Below, in pieces: positions 32,938 to 43,876 of a stretch of DNA of 63,311 bases. The notes under the pieces were generated by a model. It was not told the origin of the DNA. It ran no database searches and was given only the letters and a program-made list of their open reading frames with translations. The position numbers and the translations under genes were made by a program. Location of the stretch: assembly GCA_003569365.1 (NCBI GenBank), contig BGOS01000008.1:1-63311 (forward strand). Direction: 5' to 3'. This DNA comes from Anaerolineaceae bacterium. GTDB taxonomy: Bacteria; Chloroflexota; Anaerolineae; Anaerolineales; UBA11657. Numbering within the stretch: the stretch's first letter is position 1; the number at the start of each line of letters is the position of its first letter.

Positions 32938-34509
32938 CTAAATCAGCCACGGTGGCGCCAACAGCGCCGCCGCCTTAAACTGCTCCAGCGCTGTCCGGCT
33001 GGCGGTGACGCCCGCCTCAATTTGGTGCGTGCTGCCACCCGGGCGCGAGAGTGTGTCGAATCCTGCTTGCAGCGCAGTCACCTGCTTTTGCAAGCTGAGC
33101 AAGCTGTGCTGCGCGCGGTCGGTGGCCGTGTGCAGTGCAGCCGCAAGTTCCTCAAAAGCTGCTGCCGTTTGCCGGGCTTGGTCCATGCCGGCAGCGAGTG
33201 GCGGATCGTCTGCCTGCCCAGCCGGTGCAGCTGCCCCCGTTCCGTTCTCAAGCTCCGCCACAAGGTGCTGGATGTGGTCATCAGACTTGCGACTCTCATC
33301 CGCGAGACGGCGAATCTCCGTGGCCACTACGCTAAAGCCTTTGCCATGCTCGCCGCTGCGCGCAGCCTCAACTGTGGCGCGGCGCGCCAGCAGGTTTGAC
33401 TGGGCCGCAAATTCGCCAACACAGCTGCTGAGGGAACCGATTTGGGTGTGGTGGCTGGACAGGTGCGCCAGCTGCTCGGAATTTGCGTGCAGTTGCGATT
33501 GCAGCTCGTCGAGTATCGCAAGAGTGTCCTGGCCGGCGGCGTGCGCACTTTGCGCAGTGGTCTGCGCTGCAGCGCTGGTGTCGGCAAGCGTACTGTACAG
33601 CTCTTCCAACGCTGCCGCAAAGATGGCAAAAGCAGAGCTCTGGGCCTGCATCACTGCGGCGCTCTTGTCCGCAGCAGCAGCCTGATGTAGCACCGTCAGC
33701 GCCACCTGCTCGGAGTTTGCGCTAATGATGCTGGCGGCCTCCTGCATGGAAGCGATAGCAGTGCCCAGCGTGCGGCGCACGGAGACCCTGCTTAGCTGAT
33801 AGACCGCAGCCAGCACCAGCACCGACGCAGCACCCAACACCAGGCGGCCAGCGCTGCCGCCGGCCGGGGCTGCGCTCTCGCGGTCCTGCAGCTGCTGGCG
33901 GGCCAGTTGCGCGGCCTCCTCCAGCACAGCGCGGTGTTCGGCATAGGCTGGCGTTAGCTCCAGGTTGAAGACGCGCGCTGCCAGCTCCGGCGCCACACGC
34001 AGGGCAGGCATCAGCCGCGCATCAAACACCTCAAAGAAATGCTGCGCTGGTTCATCAGCTGCCTGCAGTAATGTTTTCAATTCTCCATCCGGCTGGTTGG
34101 CCTGCCAGTACTCGTGGCGCGCCACAAACTCCTCCTGCAGCAGCGCCATGCGTTCGAGCAGCGCAGCCTGTTGCGCGGGTTCGGTTGCAAGGATTAGAGC
34201 GCTGGCAGTGGCGTAGCTTTCCAAAAGGTGTGCCGGTGGCGGCAAAATCTCAGCCAGCAGGTCCTTGTCCGCACTCACTTGCGCATACAGCGCAGCCGGC
34301 ATGCCGCTGTTGCTGGCGGCAGCAACCAGCAGCGGCATGAGCGCAGCCCCAACACTCACCGCAAAAAAAACGGCGAGCAACGTGCGCGGGCTGGCATTCT
34401 GTGCGCGGGCCAATAAGCCCGCCAGCAGCGTTGTGGCAGCCGGGATTTGGCGGGCTGCAACAGACGGCATTTGCCGTGTTACGGGTGTGGGTTTGTTTGG
34501 CGCTTTCAA
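32938..34509 (-). CDS. diverged methyl-accepting chemotaxis-like receptor
   Basis: 523 aa. TM1 lies at about 42-66, an extracytoplasmic helical sensor domain at 67-218, and TM2 at about 220-240. No HAMP domain is evident between TM2 and a long coiled-coil signalling region. The hairpin tip (365-403) reads GEFAAQSNLLARRATVEAAR then SGEHGKGFSVVATEIRRLAD. This is clearly MCP-like, but the highly conserved ALNAAIEAAR core is changed to ARRATVEAAR. It lies 10 nt after the CheA-like gene and should be co-transcribed with it. The signal sensed and the output are unknown; no CheY, CheR or CheB gene is near. Confidence 0.85.
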   Translation of the reverse strand: MKAPNKPTPVTRQMPSVAARQIPAATTLLAGLLARAQNASPRTLLAVFFAVSVGAALMPLLVAAASNSGMPAALYAQVSADKDLLAEILPPPAHLLESYATASALILATEPAQQAALLERMALLQEEFVARHEYWQANQPDGELKTLLQAADEPAQHFFEVFDARLMPALRVAPELAARVFNLELTPAYAEHRAVLEEAAQLARQQLQDRESAAPAGGSAGRLVLGAASVLVLAAVYQLSRVSVRRTLGTAIASMQEAASIISANSEQVALTVLHQAAAADKSAAVMQAQSSAFAIFAAALEELYSTLADTSAAAQTTAQSAHAAGQDTLAILDELQSQLHANSEQLAHLSSHHTQIGSLSSCVGEFAAQSNLLARRATVEAARSGEHGKGFSVVATEIRRLADESRKSDDHIQHLVAELENGTGAAAPAGQADDPPLAAGMDQARQTAAAFEELAAALHTATDRAQHSLLSLQKQVTALQAGFDTLSRPGGSTHQIEAGVTASRTALEQFKAAALLAPPWLI

Positions 34510-34519
34510 CTGGCTGTCC

Positions 34520-36904
34520 TCAATTTTTGTTGATTACAAGGGCTGCAACTGCCGTGCCGGCACAAGAAACGGCGCGCACTTGCGCCAGTGCGCTGGCAAA
34601 CAAATCCGGCGGGTGCAGCACAATACACACCTCGCCAGTGGCCAAAATAGCGCTGCCAGCCACTGTGCGCACGTGTTTAAGTAGCGGGCCGTGCGGTTTG
34701 ATGGTCACTGTTTGCTCATCCATCAGGCTGTCCACCAGCAGGCCCAGCCGCTCTGCCCCCATTTTTACGATGACGCACGGCCACGCCACCGCACTGCCGC
34801 TCACCTGCTCCGCGGGCAGTGGCTGGCGCAGTTCCAGCAGCCGCTCCAGCATCACCACTGCCACCGGTCGCTGGCCAACGCGAATGGTTTCCTGGCCGTT
34901 CACAAGTAAAACATCGTTGCCTGTCACCAGGCGGGTGGTTTCCAGTGCCGTGCATGGGATGGCGTAGCTGTGGTTTCCCACGCGCACAACCCGCACGCGG
35001 ATGGCGGGCATGCGTACGGGCAGCTCGATGGTAAAGACTGAAGCGTTGCCCGGCGCGGACTGCACATGAACCGAACCGTTGAGGCGCACCATTACAGCGC
35101 GGGCGGCAAGCAGCCCCGCTTCCACCGCCGGGACGATGGAAAGAGTTTGTGTCCCGGTTACTGCAGCACGGGCCGGAGTGTCCGGCTGTTCGGTGCCCGG
35201 TACATTTTGCCGCCGCAGCATGCGGTTGGTGGCCGGCTCTTTCACTTCTGGAGCTTGGGTCGTGATTTCAACGATGAGGCTGGCGCTGGTCTGCCGGGCT
35301 TGCAGGCGGATTGTGCCGGCGGCCGGCTTGCCAAACCGCAAGCGCTGCAGCGGGGCCGCGACCGCGTGGTGCACGCAGTTGCTTAAGATGTGCATGATCG
35401 CAGCGAGGAGTTCTTCAATGCTGCGCGCATCTGCGTCAAGCTCGCCACCCGTTATTGCCAGCCTTACATCTTTGGAGAAGCCACGCATTAAGCGCGGCAG
35501 GCGGCTAAAGATGGTGGACAGCGGCTGCATTGCAAGTGTGTGGATGTGCTCTGCCAGATCGCGCACTACCGCAGTGAGATTTTCGTCGTTGTCATCGGCG
35601 CAGCTGCGCAGGCGCGCCAGCGTGACGTCCAGCTGTTGCAGCCGCTGCAGCGGCAGTTGGTGACCTGCATGCTTGAGATCCAGCACGTCCGCGGGAACGC
35701 GCATTTTTTCTTCCCAGAATCCCACCAGGTCCTCAACCTGCCGCAGCAGCATTCCCAAACGGGTGCGCGTTTCGGCCGGGTCGCCAGCGCCCGGCAGCAG
35801 CCCGTGTGCTTGTGGAGCAGCAGGGCCAAGGTTGTTGATGCTGGAGCTGGCTGACGAGCCGGCAGCGGCGCTGCTGGACCCGGGCAGCGCAGGCCGCGCT
35901 GTGTCCTCTACGATGAGCCCGCCGTGCAGCAGCAGCCCTGGCAGGTTGAGAATGTTGAGCACCTGGTCATCAAATGCAGTCGTACTGCTTACAAAGCCGC
36001 CGGCAGCAACGTTGCCAGCCGGCGCGGATTGACAGTGCCGCGGGTCAACATAGACCACTGCAATCACTTCATCCACCAGCAGCCCCGCTGTCAGCTCCGC
36101 CAGCTTTACAACCACCACGCTGCCGTTCGGCGCGCCATCTGGTGCGGCAATTGGCAGGCGCAGCGCACGCCGAATATCCACAACTGTCAGGATCTCGCCG
36201 TTCAAGTTCATGTTGCCCGCAATGTGTGGCGGGCAGCACGGCACTGGGGCCACGCTGCCCAGTTCGCAAAACTCGCGCACCAGATCCAAGTCCAAGCCAT
36301 AATACGCCTGTTCGATGGCAACCACTGCGAACGCAAGCGGCTTTGAGGTGCTAACGGCAGCAGCTTCCAGCGGCAAAGCCGCAGCACGCTGCTGCAGCAC
36401 AGCTGGTGCAGCATGCCCGTGTGCTGTTACCGAGCACAGCGCAGCAGCCAGCTGCTGCTGTGCCAGTAAAGGCGCCAGCTCACCGTACTGCAGCAGCCAC
36501 GCAATCTGCGCACCCAGCTTGGCCATGCGCGTGGCCAGCCGCAGCGCAAGCGAATCGCCAGCCGCGTGCACTGGCACCAGGTCCGCAGCAGAAATTAACT
36601 TCACATCCAGCACTTCGTTGGCCAGAATGCCCAGCGGACCGCGGCTGCCACTCAAGAGCATGACACAGTCTGCTTGTTGCGCGCCAACCGCGGAATGCCC
36701 GAGCTGCGCGCTCAGGTTTAGCACCGGCACCGCAACGCCGTGCAAGTTGAAACTGCCGGCAATGCACGCGGGCTGGCCCGGCATTACCGTCAGTTGTGGC
36801 ACAGACAGCACCCCGCGTACTTCCGCAGCAGCCACCGCAAAGAGCGTATTTTGAAACCGAAAAGTTAAGTGCGGTTTTTGTTCCATTAAATTACAAACAC
36901 GCAT
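34520..36904 (-). CDS. CheW-CheW-pseudoCheA-CheW scaffold protein
   Basis: 794 aa. Two N-terminal CheW-like domains (about 12-150 and 190-330) precede a Ser/Ala/Gly linker (335-375). A CheA-like core (about 380-630) and a C-terminal CheW/P5 domain (635-775, ending GLLVDSLMDEQTVTIKPHGP and SAILATGEVCIVL) follow. In the core the P3/P4 framework is recognisable (LAMQPLSTIFSRLPRLMRGF; N-box HILSNCVHHAV with Asn509). The G1 box DDGRG is replaced by ITTQAPEV and the GxGLG box by AVEAGLLAARAVM. There is no Hpt domain with a phospho-accepting histidine. A catalytically dead scaffold is inferred. Start: ATG 36904, with 36886 as alternative; neither has a ribosome site. Confidence 0.85.
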   Translation of the reverse strand: MRVCNLMEQKPHLTFRFQNTLFAVAAAEVRGVLSVPQLTVMPGQPACIAGSFNLHGVAVPVLNLSAQLGHSAVGAQQADCVMLLSGSRGPLGILANEVLDVKLISAADLVPVHAAGDSLALRLATRMAKLGAQIAWLLQYGELAPLLAQQQLAAALCSVTAHGHAAPAVLQQRAAALPLEAAAVSTSKPLAFAVVAIEQAYYGLDLDLVREFCELGSVAPVPCCPPHIAGNMNLNGEILTVVDIRRALRLPIAAPDGAPNGSVVVVKLAELTAGLLVDEVIAVVYVDPRHCQSAPAGNVAAGGFVSSTTAFDDQVLNILNLPGLLLHGGLIVEDTARPALPGSSSAAAGSSASSSINNLGPAAPQAHGLLPGAGDPAETRTRLGMLLRQVEDLVGFWEEKMRVPADVLDLKHAGHQLPLQRLQQLDVTLARLRSCADDNDENLTAVVRDLAEHIHTLAMQPLSTIFSRLPRLMRGFSKDVRLAITGGELDADARSIEELLAAIMHILSNCVHHAVAAPLQRLRFGKPAAGTIRLQARQTSASLIVEITTQAPEVKEPATNRMLRRQNVPGTEQPDTPARAAVTGTQTLSIVPAVEAGLLAARAVMVRLNGSVHVQSAPGNASVFTIELPVRMPAIRVRVVRVGNHSYAIPCTALETTRLVTGNDVLLVNGQETIRVGQRPVAVVMLERLLELRQPLPAEQVSGSAVAWPCVIVKMGAERLGLLVDSLMDEQTVTIKPHGPLLKHVRTVAGSAILATGEVCIVLHPPDLFASALAQVRAVSCAGTAVAALVINKN

Positions 36905-41089: not shown

Positions 41090-43030
41090 TTACGGCAGCT
41101 GGCTCACAACGCAGCGGAAGCCGATGTTGTGGGTGCCAACCTGATTGTCAATTGCAAAGCCGTGATACGCCGCACGCTGCTTGGAGGCGCTGTCTGTCCA
41201 GCTGCCGTTGCGCAGGCCGTACGCGCCACCGCGAAAACTTTCTTCCGGGGGCGGGGTAGCTGTGAGCACCTTGTCTAAATTGAACCAGTGGCTGCGGTAG
41301 AAACTGGACACGCGCTCTGCGACGTTGCCGGACATATCCAGCGCACCGTACGGGCTGGCGCCAAGCGGGTATGTGCCAACCGCGGTTGTGTCGCGGCTTT
41401 GCGAGGCGAAGTTAGCACGCGTGGAATCCGGCGGGGCGACGCCCCATGGATATTTGTTTCCGTCCGGCCCGCGCGCAGCTTTCTCCCACTCCATGTCCGT
41501 TGGCAGGCGCCGGCCCGCCCACTCACAATAATTTGCGGACTGCGCCCAGTTGAGCCACAGCACCGGATACGCGGCGTATTTTTCATCATCAAAGTATTTT
41601 GCGCGCGTGCCGGAGCTTGTTTTTTCCGGCGGGGTGCAGGCGTTCGCAGCGATGCACTTTTGGTACTGGCCCACGGTGACCTCGGTGCGGTCCACCCAAA
41701 AATCAGGCAGGGTGACGGTGTTCAGCGGCTGCTCATCCAATTGCGATGTGCGATCGCCAAAGTCCGAGCCCATAATGAAGCTGCCGCCGGGCACAAACAT
41801 GAGCGTGGCGCCATCGATGGCCGAGATGGCACTGGAGCCAAGCGTGGGCGGCAGCGTGGGTGTAATAGTGGGCGTGCTGGTTGGCGTGGGTGTGGGCGGC
41901 ACCGCTGTGGCAGTGGGCAGCGCTGTCGGGCTGGGTGTGGCAGTTGCGGTTTCCGTTGCAGCAACCATGGCTATGCCGTTGGCGGGCGTGGCCGTCTGCG
42001 CCACAATCACCAACACCTGCGTGGGTGCCACCGGCTCAAAACGAAGGCTGCCGTTCACCTGTTGAAACACAATCATGGCCACCAGCACCGCAACAATAAC
42101 GCCGCCGATCACAATCGACTCGCGCATGAACAGTTTTGCCAGGCGCTGCAAGTTGCGCAGCCTCGAGCCTGCCGCGGTCGGCGGGGGTTCCTCCACTTCA
42201 CCCGGCGGAAAAGGTGTGTCAGCGGGCGGCGGAGGGTCAACGGGAATGTGCAGCGGAGTTACGTGCGGCACAACCTTGCCCAGCGCCTTGCGCATTTCAC
42301 GCACGCTTTCATAGCGGTCTTCCACCCGGAAGGCCATGGCCTTCTCCACGATGCGCGTCAGCTCCTTGCCCGGCGGCTGTTCAAAAGTGCGCAGTTGGCG
42401 GATGGCAAACCGGTCCGGTATGCCGTTCTGGCTGTCACCCGGAATTGTGCCGGTAAGCATGAAGTACAGCACACTGCCAAGTGCATACACCTCGCTGGCG
42501 GCTGTTACCTGGCCGGTCAGCTGCTCGGGCGCCACCAGGGTGGCCGGTGTGCCCGGCCGGTGCGTTTTGCCGATGCTGTAGTCCACCAGCACCGCCTGGT
42601 CTTCGCTGGTAAGCAAAATGTTGGCCGCCTTGATGTCGCGATGGAAAAGCGGCACCGGCCGTTCGTGCAGGTGGTGAACTGCAACCAAAATCTGCATCGT
42701 CAATTCAATTGCGACAGCTTCCGCCAATGGACCTTCGTCCGCAACGCGGTCGGCAACGCTTACGCCGCTCACATACTCCATCACCAGGTAGCGCGTGTCG
42801 CCCATAGTAAAGTGGTCGAGCACCCCCGCCAGATTGGGGTGCACCACCTGGCGCAGCGCTGCGGCAATTGTGTCGAACTCCGCACCATCCACGGTGCCAA
42901 ATTCCTTCACCACGCACGTCTGATTGCTGATGGTGTCGTACGCAGCGTACACCGTGCCGGCCTCAAACGGCGATAGCAGCGCGTCTATGCGGTAGCGATG
43001 ATGAACGTGGAGGCCGGGCTGCAGGGGCAT
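41090..43030 (-). CDS. Ser/Thr protein kinase fused to FGE-sulfatase (SUMF1-like) extracellular domain
   Basis: 646 aa. The cytoplasmic kinase domain (1-260) has Lys42 in CVVKEFG and HRD at 130-132 in LFHRDIKAANILL. The DFG aspartate is in VDYSIG (150-152, Phe replaced by Tyr), and VAPEQLTG is the activation-segment end. A Pro-rich stretch leads to TM 306-323. An outside Thr/Pro linker (about 350-400) and a formylglycine-generating-enzyme-like domain (402-646: FVPGGSFIMGS, VDRTEVTVGQYQKC, RRLPTDMEWEKAARG, GFRCV) follow. The FGE part probably senses or binds rather than modifies sulfatases. The start at 43030 is chosen because the region upstream is antisense to the next gene. Confidence 0.92.
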   Translation of the reverse strand: MPLQPGLHVHHRYRIDALLSPFEAGTVYAAYDTISNQTCVVKEFGTVDGAEFDTIAAALRQVVHPNLAGVLDHFTMGDTRYLVMEYVSGVSVADRVADEGPLAEAVAIELTMQILVAVHHLHERPVPLFHRDIKAANILLTSEDQAVLVDYSIGKTHRPGTPATLVAPEQLTGQVTAASEVYALGSVLYFMLTGTIPGDSQNGIPDRFAIRQLRTFEQPPGKELTRIVEKAMAFRVEDRYESVREMRKALGKVVPHVTPLHIPVDPPPPADTPFPPGEVEEPPPTAAGSRLRNLQRLAKLFMRESIVIGGVIVAVLVAMIVFQQVNGSLRFEPVAPTQVLVIVAQTATPANGIAMVAATETATATPSPTALPTATAVPPTPTPTSTPTITPTLPPTLGSSAISAIDGATLMFVPGGSFIMGSDFGDRTSQLDEQPLNTVTLPDFWVDRTEVTVGQYQKCIAANACTPPEKTSSGTRAKYFDDEKYAAYPVLWLNWAQSANYCEWAGRRLPTDMEWEKAARGPDGNKYPWGVAPPDSTRANFASQSRDTTAVGTYPLGASPYGALDMSGNVAERVSSFYRSHWFNLDKVLTATPPPEESFRGGAYGLRNGSWTDSASKQRAAYHGFAIDNQVGTHNIGFRCVVSQLP

Positions 43031-43101
43031 GCCGATAAATTGCGGTAGAAACTTGAAAGCGAACTGACTGTAATTATAGCTTTGTTGATGCGTACAGGTG
43101 C

Positions 43102-43129
43102 TTGACGGCGGGTGTTGGCGCCCTATACT
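43102..43129 (+). promoter_or_regulatory. promoter of the zinc-phospholipase-like gene (leaderless arrangement)
   Basis: TTGACG at 43102-43107, 16-nt spacer, TATACT at 43124-43129, ATG at 43136. The start codon coincides with the expected transcription start, so the mRNA should have no leader. Confidence 0.6.
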
Positions 43130-43135
43130 TTTGCC

Positions 43136-43876
43136 ATGCCCACGCCTTTTTATCACCTGCAGGTGGCTGCGACCCTGCAGGTTGCGCTGGATGCGCCCGC
43201 TGCGCACAGCGCCTTTCTCTTTGGCAACACCGCGCCAGATGTGCAAACGCTCTCTGGCGCAGCGCGCAGCGCCACGCATTTCTTTGACATGCCGGTTACC
43301 CAGGCGCCGCGCGCCGTGCTTAGCCTGCTGCAGGCGCATCCGCAGCTCGCTGCGCCCGGCCTTTCTTCCGCACAGCGCGCCTTCGTTGCCGGCTACCTGG
43401 CGCACCTGGCACTGGATGAGCTGTGGCTGCGGGAGATCTTTCAGCCGGTGTTCGGGCCGGAGGCGGGCTGGGAGGATTTTGGCGAACGCCTGTTTTTGCA
43501 CAACGTGCTGCGCACGTATCTCGATGAGCGCGACCGGCCGCTGCTGCCCGCCAGCATGGCTGCACTGCTGGCGGCTGCCGAGCCCGCCGGCTGGCTGCCG
43601 TTTGCCAGCGACACAGATTTGTGCAGCTGGCGCAATTTTTTGGTGCAACAGCTGCAGCCCGGCGCTACTGCCCAAACCGTCGCCGTTTTTGCACAGCGCA
43701 TGGGCCGCACCCCGCAGGAGTTTGAGGCGCTGCTGGGCTCGCCGGCAGAGCTGCAGGCGCGCATCTTCAGCCGCATCAGCGAGGCACAACTGGATGGCTT
43801 TCAAAGCCGGGGAGCCAGCTTGTGCAAGCAGGTGGTGGATGATTTTCTGCAGCCGCCAGCGGCTGGAAATCGGTAA
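43136..43876 (+). CDS. zinc-dependent phospholipase C/S1-P1-type helical protein
   Basis: 246 aa, all-helical. Several metal-ligand-like residues are placed as in the zinc-dependent phospholipase C family: MPTPFYHLQVA (His), SAFLFGNTAPDVQTLSG (Asp), THFFDMP (His, Asp) and AGYLAHLALDELW (His, Asp). No signal peptide is seen. Function is uncertain: lipid phosphodiesterase is the family-level guess. It diverges from the kinase-FGE gene over about 105 nt. Confidence 0.7.
   Translation: MPTPFYHLQVAATLQVALDAPAAHSAFLFGNTAPDVQTLSGAARSATHFFDMPVTQAPRAVLSLLQAHPQLAAPGLSSAQRAFVAGYLAHLALDELWLREIFQPVFGPEAGWEDFGERLFLHNVLRTYLDERDRPLLPASMAALLAAAEPAGWLPFASDTDLCSWRNFLVQQLQPGATAQTVAVFAQRMGRTPQEFEALLGSPAELQARIFSRISEAQLDGFQSRGASLCKQVVDDFLQPPAAGNR

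Follow-up and report, generated by a model that had tools for sequence, protein, structure and literature searches.

We analyzed a 63,311-nucleotide stretch of DNA from an Anaerolineaceae bacterium (GenBank assembly GCA_003569365.1, contig BGOS01000008.1; hereafter, the window), which is one of the contigs of a 2.63-Mb genome that is 95.5% complete. The subject of this work is a pair of chemosensory genes at positions 32938-36904. Two open reading frames (ORFs) on the minus strand encode a CheA-like protein of 794 amino acids (aa), termed here pseudoCheA (34520-36904), followed by an MCP chemoreceptor of 523 aa (32938-34509). An earlier annotation made from the letters of the DNA alone, referred to below as the original prediction, had placed both ORFs and their strand correctly. 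The MCP gene starts with a TTG codon 10 bp past the pseudoCheA stop, and the TGAGGA sequence over this stop codon is a plausible ribosome-binding site for it. The pair has the same gene order in all three genomes of the genus, which are Anaerolineales metagenome-assembled genomes (MAGs): the host genome (G000), Chloroflexi bacterium isolate ZSMay80m-chloro-G1 (G002), and Anaerolineales bacterium isolate ZE-17mar17-73 (G001).

Domain architecture of the pair

Analysis of the 794-aa protein revealed the following features: (i) three CheW domains are found by Pfam, (ii) an Hpt domain is not found by Pfam, (iii) the HATPase_c match scores 21.9 bits, under its cut-off of 26.4, and (iv) every PDB match to residues 435-764 is to CheA P3-P5. 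The predicted order CheW-CheW-CheA core-CheW without Hpt is thus confirmed. An ORF artefact or a frameshift hiding an Hpt domain was ruled out: the orthologs have the same architecture, and the only Hpt domain of the genome lies inside its other CheA, on contig C9. Residues 381-794 were modelled with AlphaFold2 from 28 sequences (mean pLDDT 76.5, pTM 0.48). In the model, P3 is helical, P4 retains an alpha/beta core, and P5 is predicted with confidence; the best Foldseek matches are the CheA structures 1b3q, 6s1k, and 2ch4. The alignment used for modelling was that of P3-P5 alone, as CheW2 falls wrongly onto P5 when the protein is aligned at full length. The pLDDT is below 50 over the former ATP lid, residues 553-593 (model residues 173-213), and the model is no direct test of ATP binding.

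The MCP has two transmembrane (TM) segments, a periplasmic domain, and a signalling hairpin with a conserved tip. Its lack of a HAMP domain was noted correctly in the original prediction but is not distinctive, since the genome's other receptor, the MCP of contig C9, also lacks HAMP. The tip reads LARRATVEAAR. The replacement of LALNAA by LARRAT is genus-specific, and the change from LALNA to LARRA is found in all three genomes, with further changes in G002, so that the proposed alteration of the tip holds in this part; the Phe to Ala change, at the position that we take to be F373 in Tsr numbering, is normal across the receptor family of this MCP. The distance from TM2 to the tip is 145 residues, compared with 133 in the C9 MCP. 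Apart from the C9 MCP, none of the receptors examined showed this sensor domain. As a separate observation, the sensor domain with the motif DKDLLADILPPP (window 33859-34323; L031:12449-14017) has no Pfam match and occurs also in alphaproteobacterial plasmid sequences, mostly of Rhizobium, at about 37% identity, several of which are annotated as MCPs.

Table 1. Positions of the pair and its domains in the window
Feature	Coordinates	Strand	Evidence
pseudoCheA, CheW1-CheW2-linker-P3-P4(degenerate)-P5, 794 aa, no Hpt	34520..36904	-	ORF, Pfam, PDB matches, alignment
CheW domain 1, residues 12-145	36470..36871	-	Pfam CheW; dN/dS 0.25
CheW domain 2, residues about 190-326	35927..36337	-	Pfam CheW, 87.6 bits; dN/dS 0.28
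P3-like dimerisation helices, residues 400-462	35519..35707	-	Alignment with T. maritima CheA; helical in model; below Pfam H-kinase_dim detection
P4 GHKL domain without its ATP boxes, residues 463-632; region missing in frame from the G001 ortholog	35009..35518	-	
Residues 549-554, at the site of the former G1 box (DDGxGL)	35243..35260	-	Alignment
Site of the deleted or replaced F-box/ATP lid and G2 box, residues 578-600	35105..35173	-	Alignment
P5 (CheW-like), residues 633-775, conserved positions kept 16/16	34580..35008	-	Alignment; Pfam CheW, 53 bits
MCP chemoreceptor, 523 aa	32938..34509	-	Pfam MCPsignal, 5.3e-23; dN/dS 0.23-0.27
Periplasmic sensor domain with ADKDLLAEILPPP motif; identity to the C9 MCP sensor domain 35%	33859..34323	-	
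MCP hairpin tip with genus-specific LARRA[TA]	33292..33414	-	Alignment

Loss of kinase motifs and selection on the domains

The ATP-binding motifs of P4 were compared with those of 26 relatives that carry an intact CheA, using the P4 and P5 columns conserved in at least 90% of these relatives. The G1 position reads EITTQAPEV in the window protein, whereas 25 of the 26 relatives have DDG. The F-box and lid (IFxPGFST) are deleted in both orthologs that still carry P4, i.e. the window protein and its G002 counterpart. The G2 box, SGRGxGLDVV in the relatives, reads PAVEAGLLAA here and is lost in G002 too, where half of the G1 box is retained (TDDGAAL). The N-box Asn, which was proposed to survive, is retained in this species only; the G002 protein has His instead. 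Overall, the window protein keeps 20 of the 55 conserved columns of P4 versus all 16 of P5. In the G001 ortholog, 170 aa of P4 are deleted in frame, with the junction joining GMQPLS to ALNVLVVRVGNHSYAIP. The P3 helices, CheW2, and P5 of this ortholog lie on one contig, and CheW1 is on a second contig that overlaps the first in CheW2. P4 was not found elsewhere in the G001 assembly (68% complete).

The ratio of nonsynonymous to synonymous substitution rates (dN/dS) was calculated pairwise by NG86, with domains compared between G000 and G002. It is 0.25 for CheW1, 0.28 for CheW2, and 0.33 for P5 (confidence intervals, CIs, within 0.14-0.50), and rises to 0.48 for P3, 0.62 for the linker, and 0.71 for P4 (CI 0.45-1.11). 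The contrast between P4 and the combined CheW1, CheW2, and P5 has a permutation p value of 0.0015. For the intact CheA of contig C9, compared between the same two genomes, the dN/dS of P4 is 0.01. The MCP has values of 0.23-0.27, and its tip of 0.15-0.26. Both frames of the pair are open in all three species at a synonymous divergence (dS) of about 0.3-0.8. Thus, purifying selection acts on the parts that build arrays, chiefly on CheW1, CheW2, and P5, and is not measurable for the catalytic part.

The assignment of the 794-aa protein as kinase-dead is well supported, as the motifs, the conservation pattern, the selection analysis, and the G001 deletion agree. The kinase-dead scaffold with a dedicated receptor put forward in the original prediction is borne out by the loss of G1, F-box/lid, and G2, by the P4 dN/dS of 0.71, and by the deletion of P4 in G001. 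This in-frame deletion, in a 68% complete MAG, shows P4 to be apparently dispensable. We infer that ATP binding itself is lost as well. Because Hpt is absent and the ATP motifs are lost, signalling by phosphorylation through this protein appears to be closed to the receptor.

Origin of the pair and the intact chemosensory operon

In Cyanobacteria and Nitrospirota, we observed operons of the order CheR, tandem CheW (about 350 aa), MCP, CheA (Hpt followed by P3, P4, P5, and a receiver domain, REC), and CheB. Residues 1-335 of the window protein match the tandem CheW with up to 155 bits, and residues 400-780 match the CheA of the tandem-CheW operon with 220 bits (to locus L054), compared with 90 bits for the C9 CheA against the whole protein. 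In maximum-likelihood trees, P3-P5 of pseudoCheA falls into the tandem-CheW clade with support 100/99, far from the C9 CheA; its exact place inside this clade is unsure because of its long branch. The MCP hairpin likewise belongs to the tandem-CheW-operon family (142 versus 141 residues from the tip to the C-terminus), with the tip framework in common. As to ancestry, these matches and trees show that the window protein evidently arose when a tandem CheW was joined to P3-P4-P5 of a CheA belonging to a Wsp/ACF-type operon. The label ACF rests on operon resemblance (CheR with a long C-terminus, two CheWs, and CheA-REC) and on PMC3447774, with no class profile. The original prediction was right about an Hpt-less kinase-dead scaffold but incomplete, having missed this fusion. 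A duplication of the genome's own CheA/MCP operon was rejected as the source, since both P3-P5 and the MCP hairpin fall into a different chemosensory class. The receptor looks chimeric, since it combines the hairpin of the tandem-CheW family with a sensor domain like that of the C9 MCP.

The same tandem-CheW arrangement was found in two Anaerolineae of the class, G493 and G559, in the latter across two contigs. A direct cyanobacterial origin is not claimed, because the operons of these two genomes are placed close to the base of the tandem-CheW clade. Elsewhere in the order and class, most of the Chloroflexota operons that were inspected have two separate CheWs around CheR. Tandem CheW-CheW proteins of about 350 aa adjoin CheR, MCP, or CheA-REC at loci L100, L102, L108, L120, L071, L147, and L148, and the hosts of this set are Cyanobacteria, Nitrospirota, and two Anaerolineae.

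A genome-wide domain scan of G000 identified exactly two MCPs and one CheW/CheA cluster beyond the pair. This cluster, on contig C9 (locus L031), encodes CheA, CheW, MCP, CheR, CheB, and a receiver-adenylate/guanylate cyclase; its CheA has both an Hpt domain (HTFKG) and intact ATP boxes. At the locus of the pair itself, the ORF list and Pfam show no CheR, CheB, or CheA-REC genes among the flanks. The original statement that no active CheA, CheR, or CheB is adjacent therefore stands for the flanks, but C9 carries CheR, CheB, and a CheA of the active type, and because of this complete operon the pair does not lie in an otherwise kinase-less cell. Flagellar genes are present in G000, and no match to a type IV pilus/secretion ATPase was found in this genome. 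Among its nine receiver domains, none is in a CheY-sized frame.

Two further observations concern the C9 operon. It is the sole kinase-competent operon (L031:9253-16871) and ends in the receiver fused to a class III adenylate/guanylate cyclase, a fusion that is 97% identical in G002; chemosensory output may run through a cyclic nucleotide. Comparison of L031 with the corresponding G002 locus (L036, contig C2) gave dS of 0.15-0.19 for cheA and cheW and 0.44-0.73 for the MCP, cheR, and cheB genes, a split that suggests a recent exchange of part of the operon.

Predicted role and comparison with known systems

In known arrays, CheW domains and P5 form rings through contacts with receptor tips and with one another, and P3 dimerises CheA. 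A structural role for pseudoCheA is inferred from the purifying selection on the array-building parts and its lack of measurable effect on the catalytic part. We consider it slightly more probable than its negation that the pair is a kinase-free receptor-plus-scaffold, whose protein may hold receptors and would be unable to phosphorylate. The receptor binding, baseplate formation, and output of the pair are predicted as follows. CheW1, CheW2, and P5 would attach to the adjacent MCP at its tips and link neighboring receptors into a baseplate, P3 would make the dimer, and P4 would serve as a dispensable spacer. The pair would likely serve to assemble or position a second patch of receptors, or to influence the one active array of the cell by contact or competition. 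As the original prediction suggested, the output may be structural or may run through another histidine kinase. It is possible, though doubtful, that a single fused CheW-CheW-P3-P5 polypeptide takes the place of CheW as well as CheA in an array with a non-phosphoryl output, be it mechanical, positional, or competitive. The loss of acidic residues described below and the absence of local CheR and CheB would fit a receptor that has ceased to drive a kinase subject to adaptation.

Several observations weigh against a maintained receptor scaffold. All three genomes of the genus are MAGs, with G001 only 68% complete. CheW1 of this species keeps 11 of its 20 conserved positions, and the Arg of the NLRG motif is gone here from both CheW1 (R55H) and CheW2 (R235N), while it is kept in the other two species. 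The MCP of the pair retains 46 of 114 conserved positions, and the acidic residues that its relatives have in the first methylation helix are replaced by K, N, Q, or A. These altered CheW and MCP positions could mean that receptor coupling is decaying too. In the extreme case the pair would be a functionless relic of an ACF operon, from which CheR, CheB, REC, and Hpt have gone and in which P4 is eroded or deleted, with the double loss of the NLRG Arg and the loss of methylation residues as further signs of decay. We regard such a relic as improbable, given that the frames have stayed open in all three species over the dS stated above, the CIs for CheW1, CheW2, and P5 are well under 1, the MCP and its tip have similarly low dN/dS, and P4 was cut out in frame without breaking the gene.

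Another possibility is that the pair joins the active array encoded on C9, where its CheW domains and P5, or a mixed P3 dimer, would couple the receptor to the working CheA or dampen that CheA in a dominant-negative manner. In favour of this, the two MCPs share a rare type of sensor domain, no kinase of the genome other than the C9 CheA has an Hpt domain, and baseplates in which paralogs are mixed have been documented for Azospirillum (PMC6759762). On the other hand, the receptor hairpin of the pair is 12 residues longer from TM2 to the tip, the tip has LARRAT versus LALNAA in the C9 MCP, the CheA core and MCP are of a different chemosensory class, and P3 is far diverged from that of C9 (about 25% identity overall), so that we consider this possibility unlikely. 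In terms of single features, the longer hairpin and altered tip would favour an array of the pair's own, and the shared sensor domain the C9 array. An active half of a split kinase, phosphorylating the Hpt domain of another protein, is strongly disfavoured. Such a layout, with P1 absent and P3-P4-P5 kept, is known from CheA4 of Rhodobacter sphaeroides (PMC10782961, PMC3591291), but pseudoCheA has lost G1, F-box/lid, and G2, the model shows a disordered lid, the G001 ortholog has no P4, and a separate Hpt protein was not found in the genome.

Comparison of the pair with known systems revealed partial similarities. The ACF/Wsp tandem-CheW operon shares with the pair the tandem CheW, CheA P3-P5, and a related MCP tip; it differs in encoding CheW-CheW and CheA-REC by separate genes, in having an intact kinase that carries Hpt and REC, and in the presence of both CheR and CheB. 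R. sphaeroides has a CheA4 without P1 and a CheA3 with a degenerate P4 (PMC10782961, PMC3591291), resembling pseudoCheA, but P4 of CheA4 is active and Hpt of CheA3 works, whereas pseudoCheA has neither and carries two N-terminal CheWs. The F2 CheW-CheR-like scaffold of Treponema is also a conserved fusion of CheW to an enzyme domain inferred to be inactive; there, however, the dead enzyme is CheR, and the array has a co-transcribed active CheA (PMC7666581). More than one CheW occurs in CheAs of the F5 class, including a three-CheW protein of Thermomicrobium roseum (PMC10782961), but these are reported with the core P1, P3, P4, and P5, whereas the extra CheWs of pseudoCheA are N-terminal and P1 is missing. 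A survey of 13,673 CheAs reported this core throughout, the split CheA3/CheA4 being the exception, and recorded three CheW domains as a rarity of two Chloroflexota (PMC10782961). CheW-only linkers have been proposed to couple receptors without a kinase (PMC4672929).

A scan of the genome contigs with the single 794-aa protein did not find the fused architecture elsewhere, and a profile scan of the contigs found it in this genus only. It was likewise absent outside the genus in non-exhaustive samples of the order (400 genomes, CheW family), class (396), and phylum (400), and no CheW domain was found in any genome of the family outside this genus. Conservation of the architecture with an adjacent MCP thus holds within the genus, where the pair is syntenic, but not beyond it among the scanned genomes. 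A literature search on tandem CheW, kinase-dead scaffolds, and CheA pseudokinases found no matching system. PseudoCheA keeps the array-building parts only, and one species has dropped P4 altogether. If the protein binds its receptor, the pair would be a natural separation of the structural and kinase roles of CheA and a tool for probing arrays without phosphorylation. The genus includes lake Chloroflexota MAGs. Flagellated planktonic Chloroflexota of the CL500-11 group have been described as abundant in deep lakes (PMC6169038).

A promoter and terminator scan at the locus gave matches not above the shuffled expectation, and these were not used. According to Pfam, the pair is flanked by a penicillin-acylase-family gene, a RecF-like gene, and sugar-nucleotide genes. 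Adjoining the RecF-like gene on the minus strand, positions 41090-43804 of the window encode a 904-aa protein with a Ser/Thr protein kinase domain and an FGE-sulfatase (formylglycine-generating-like) domain.

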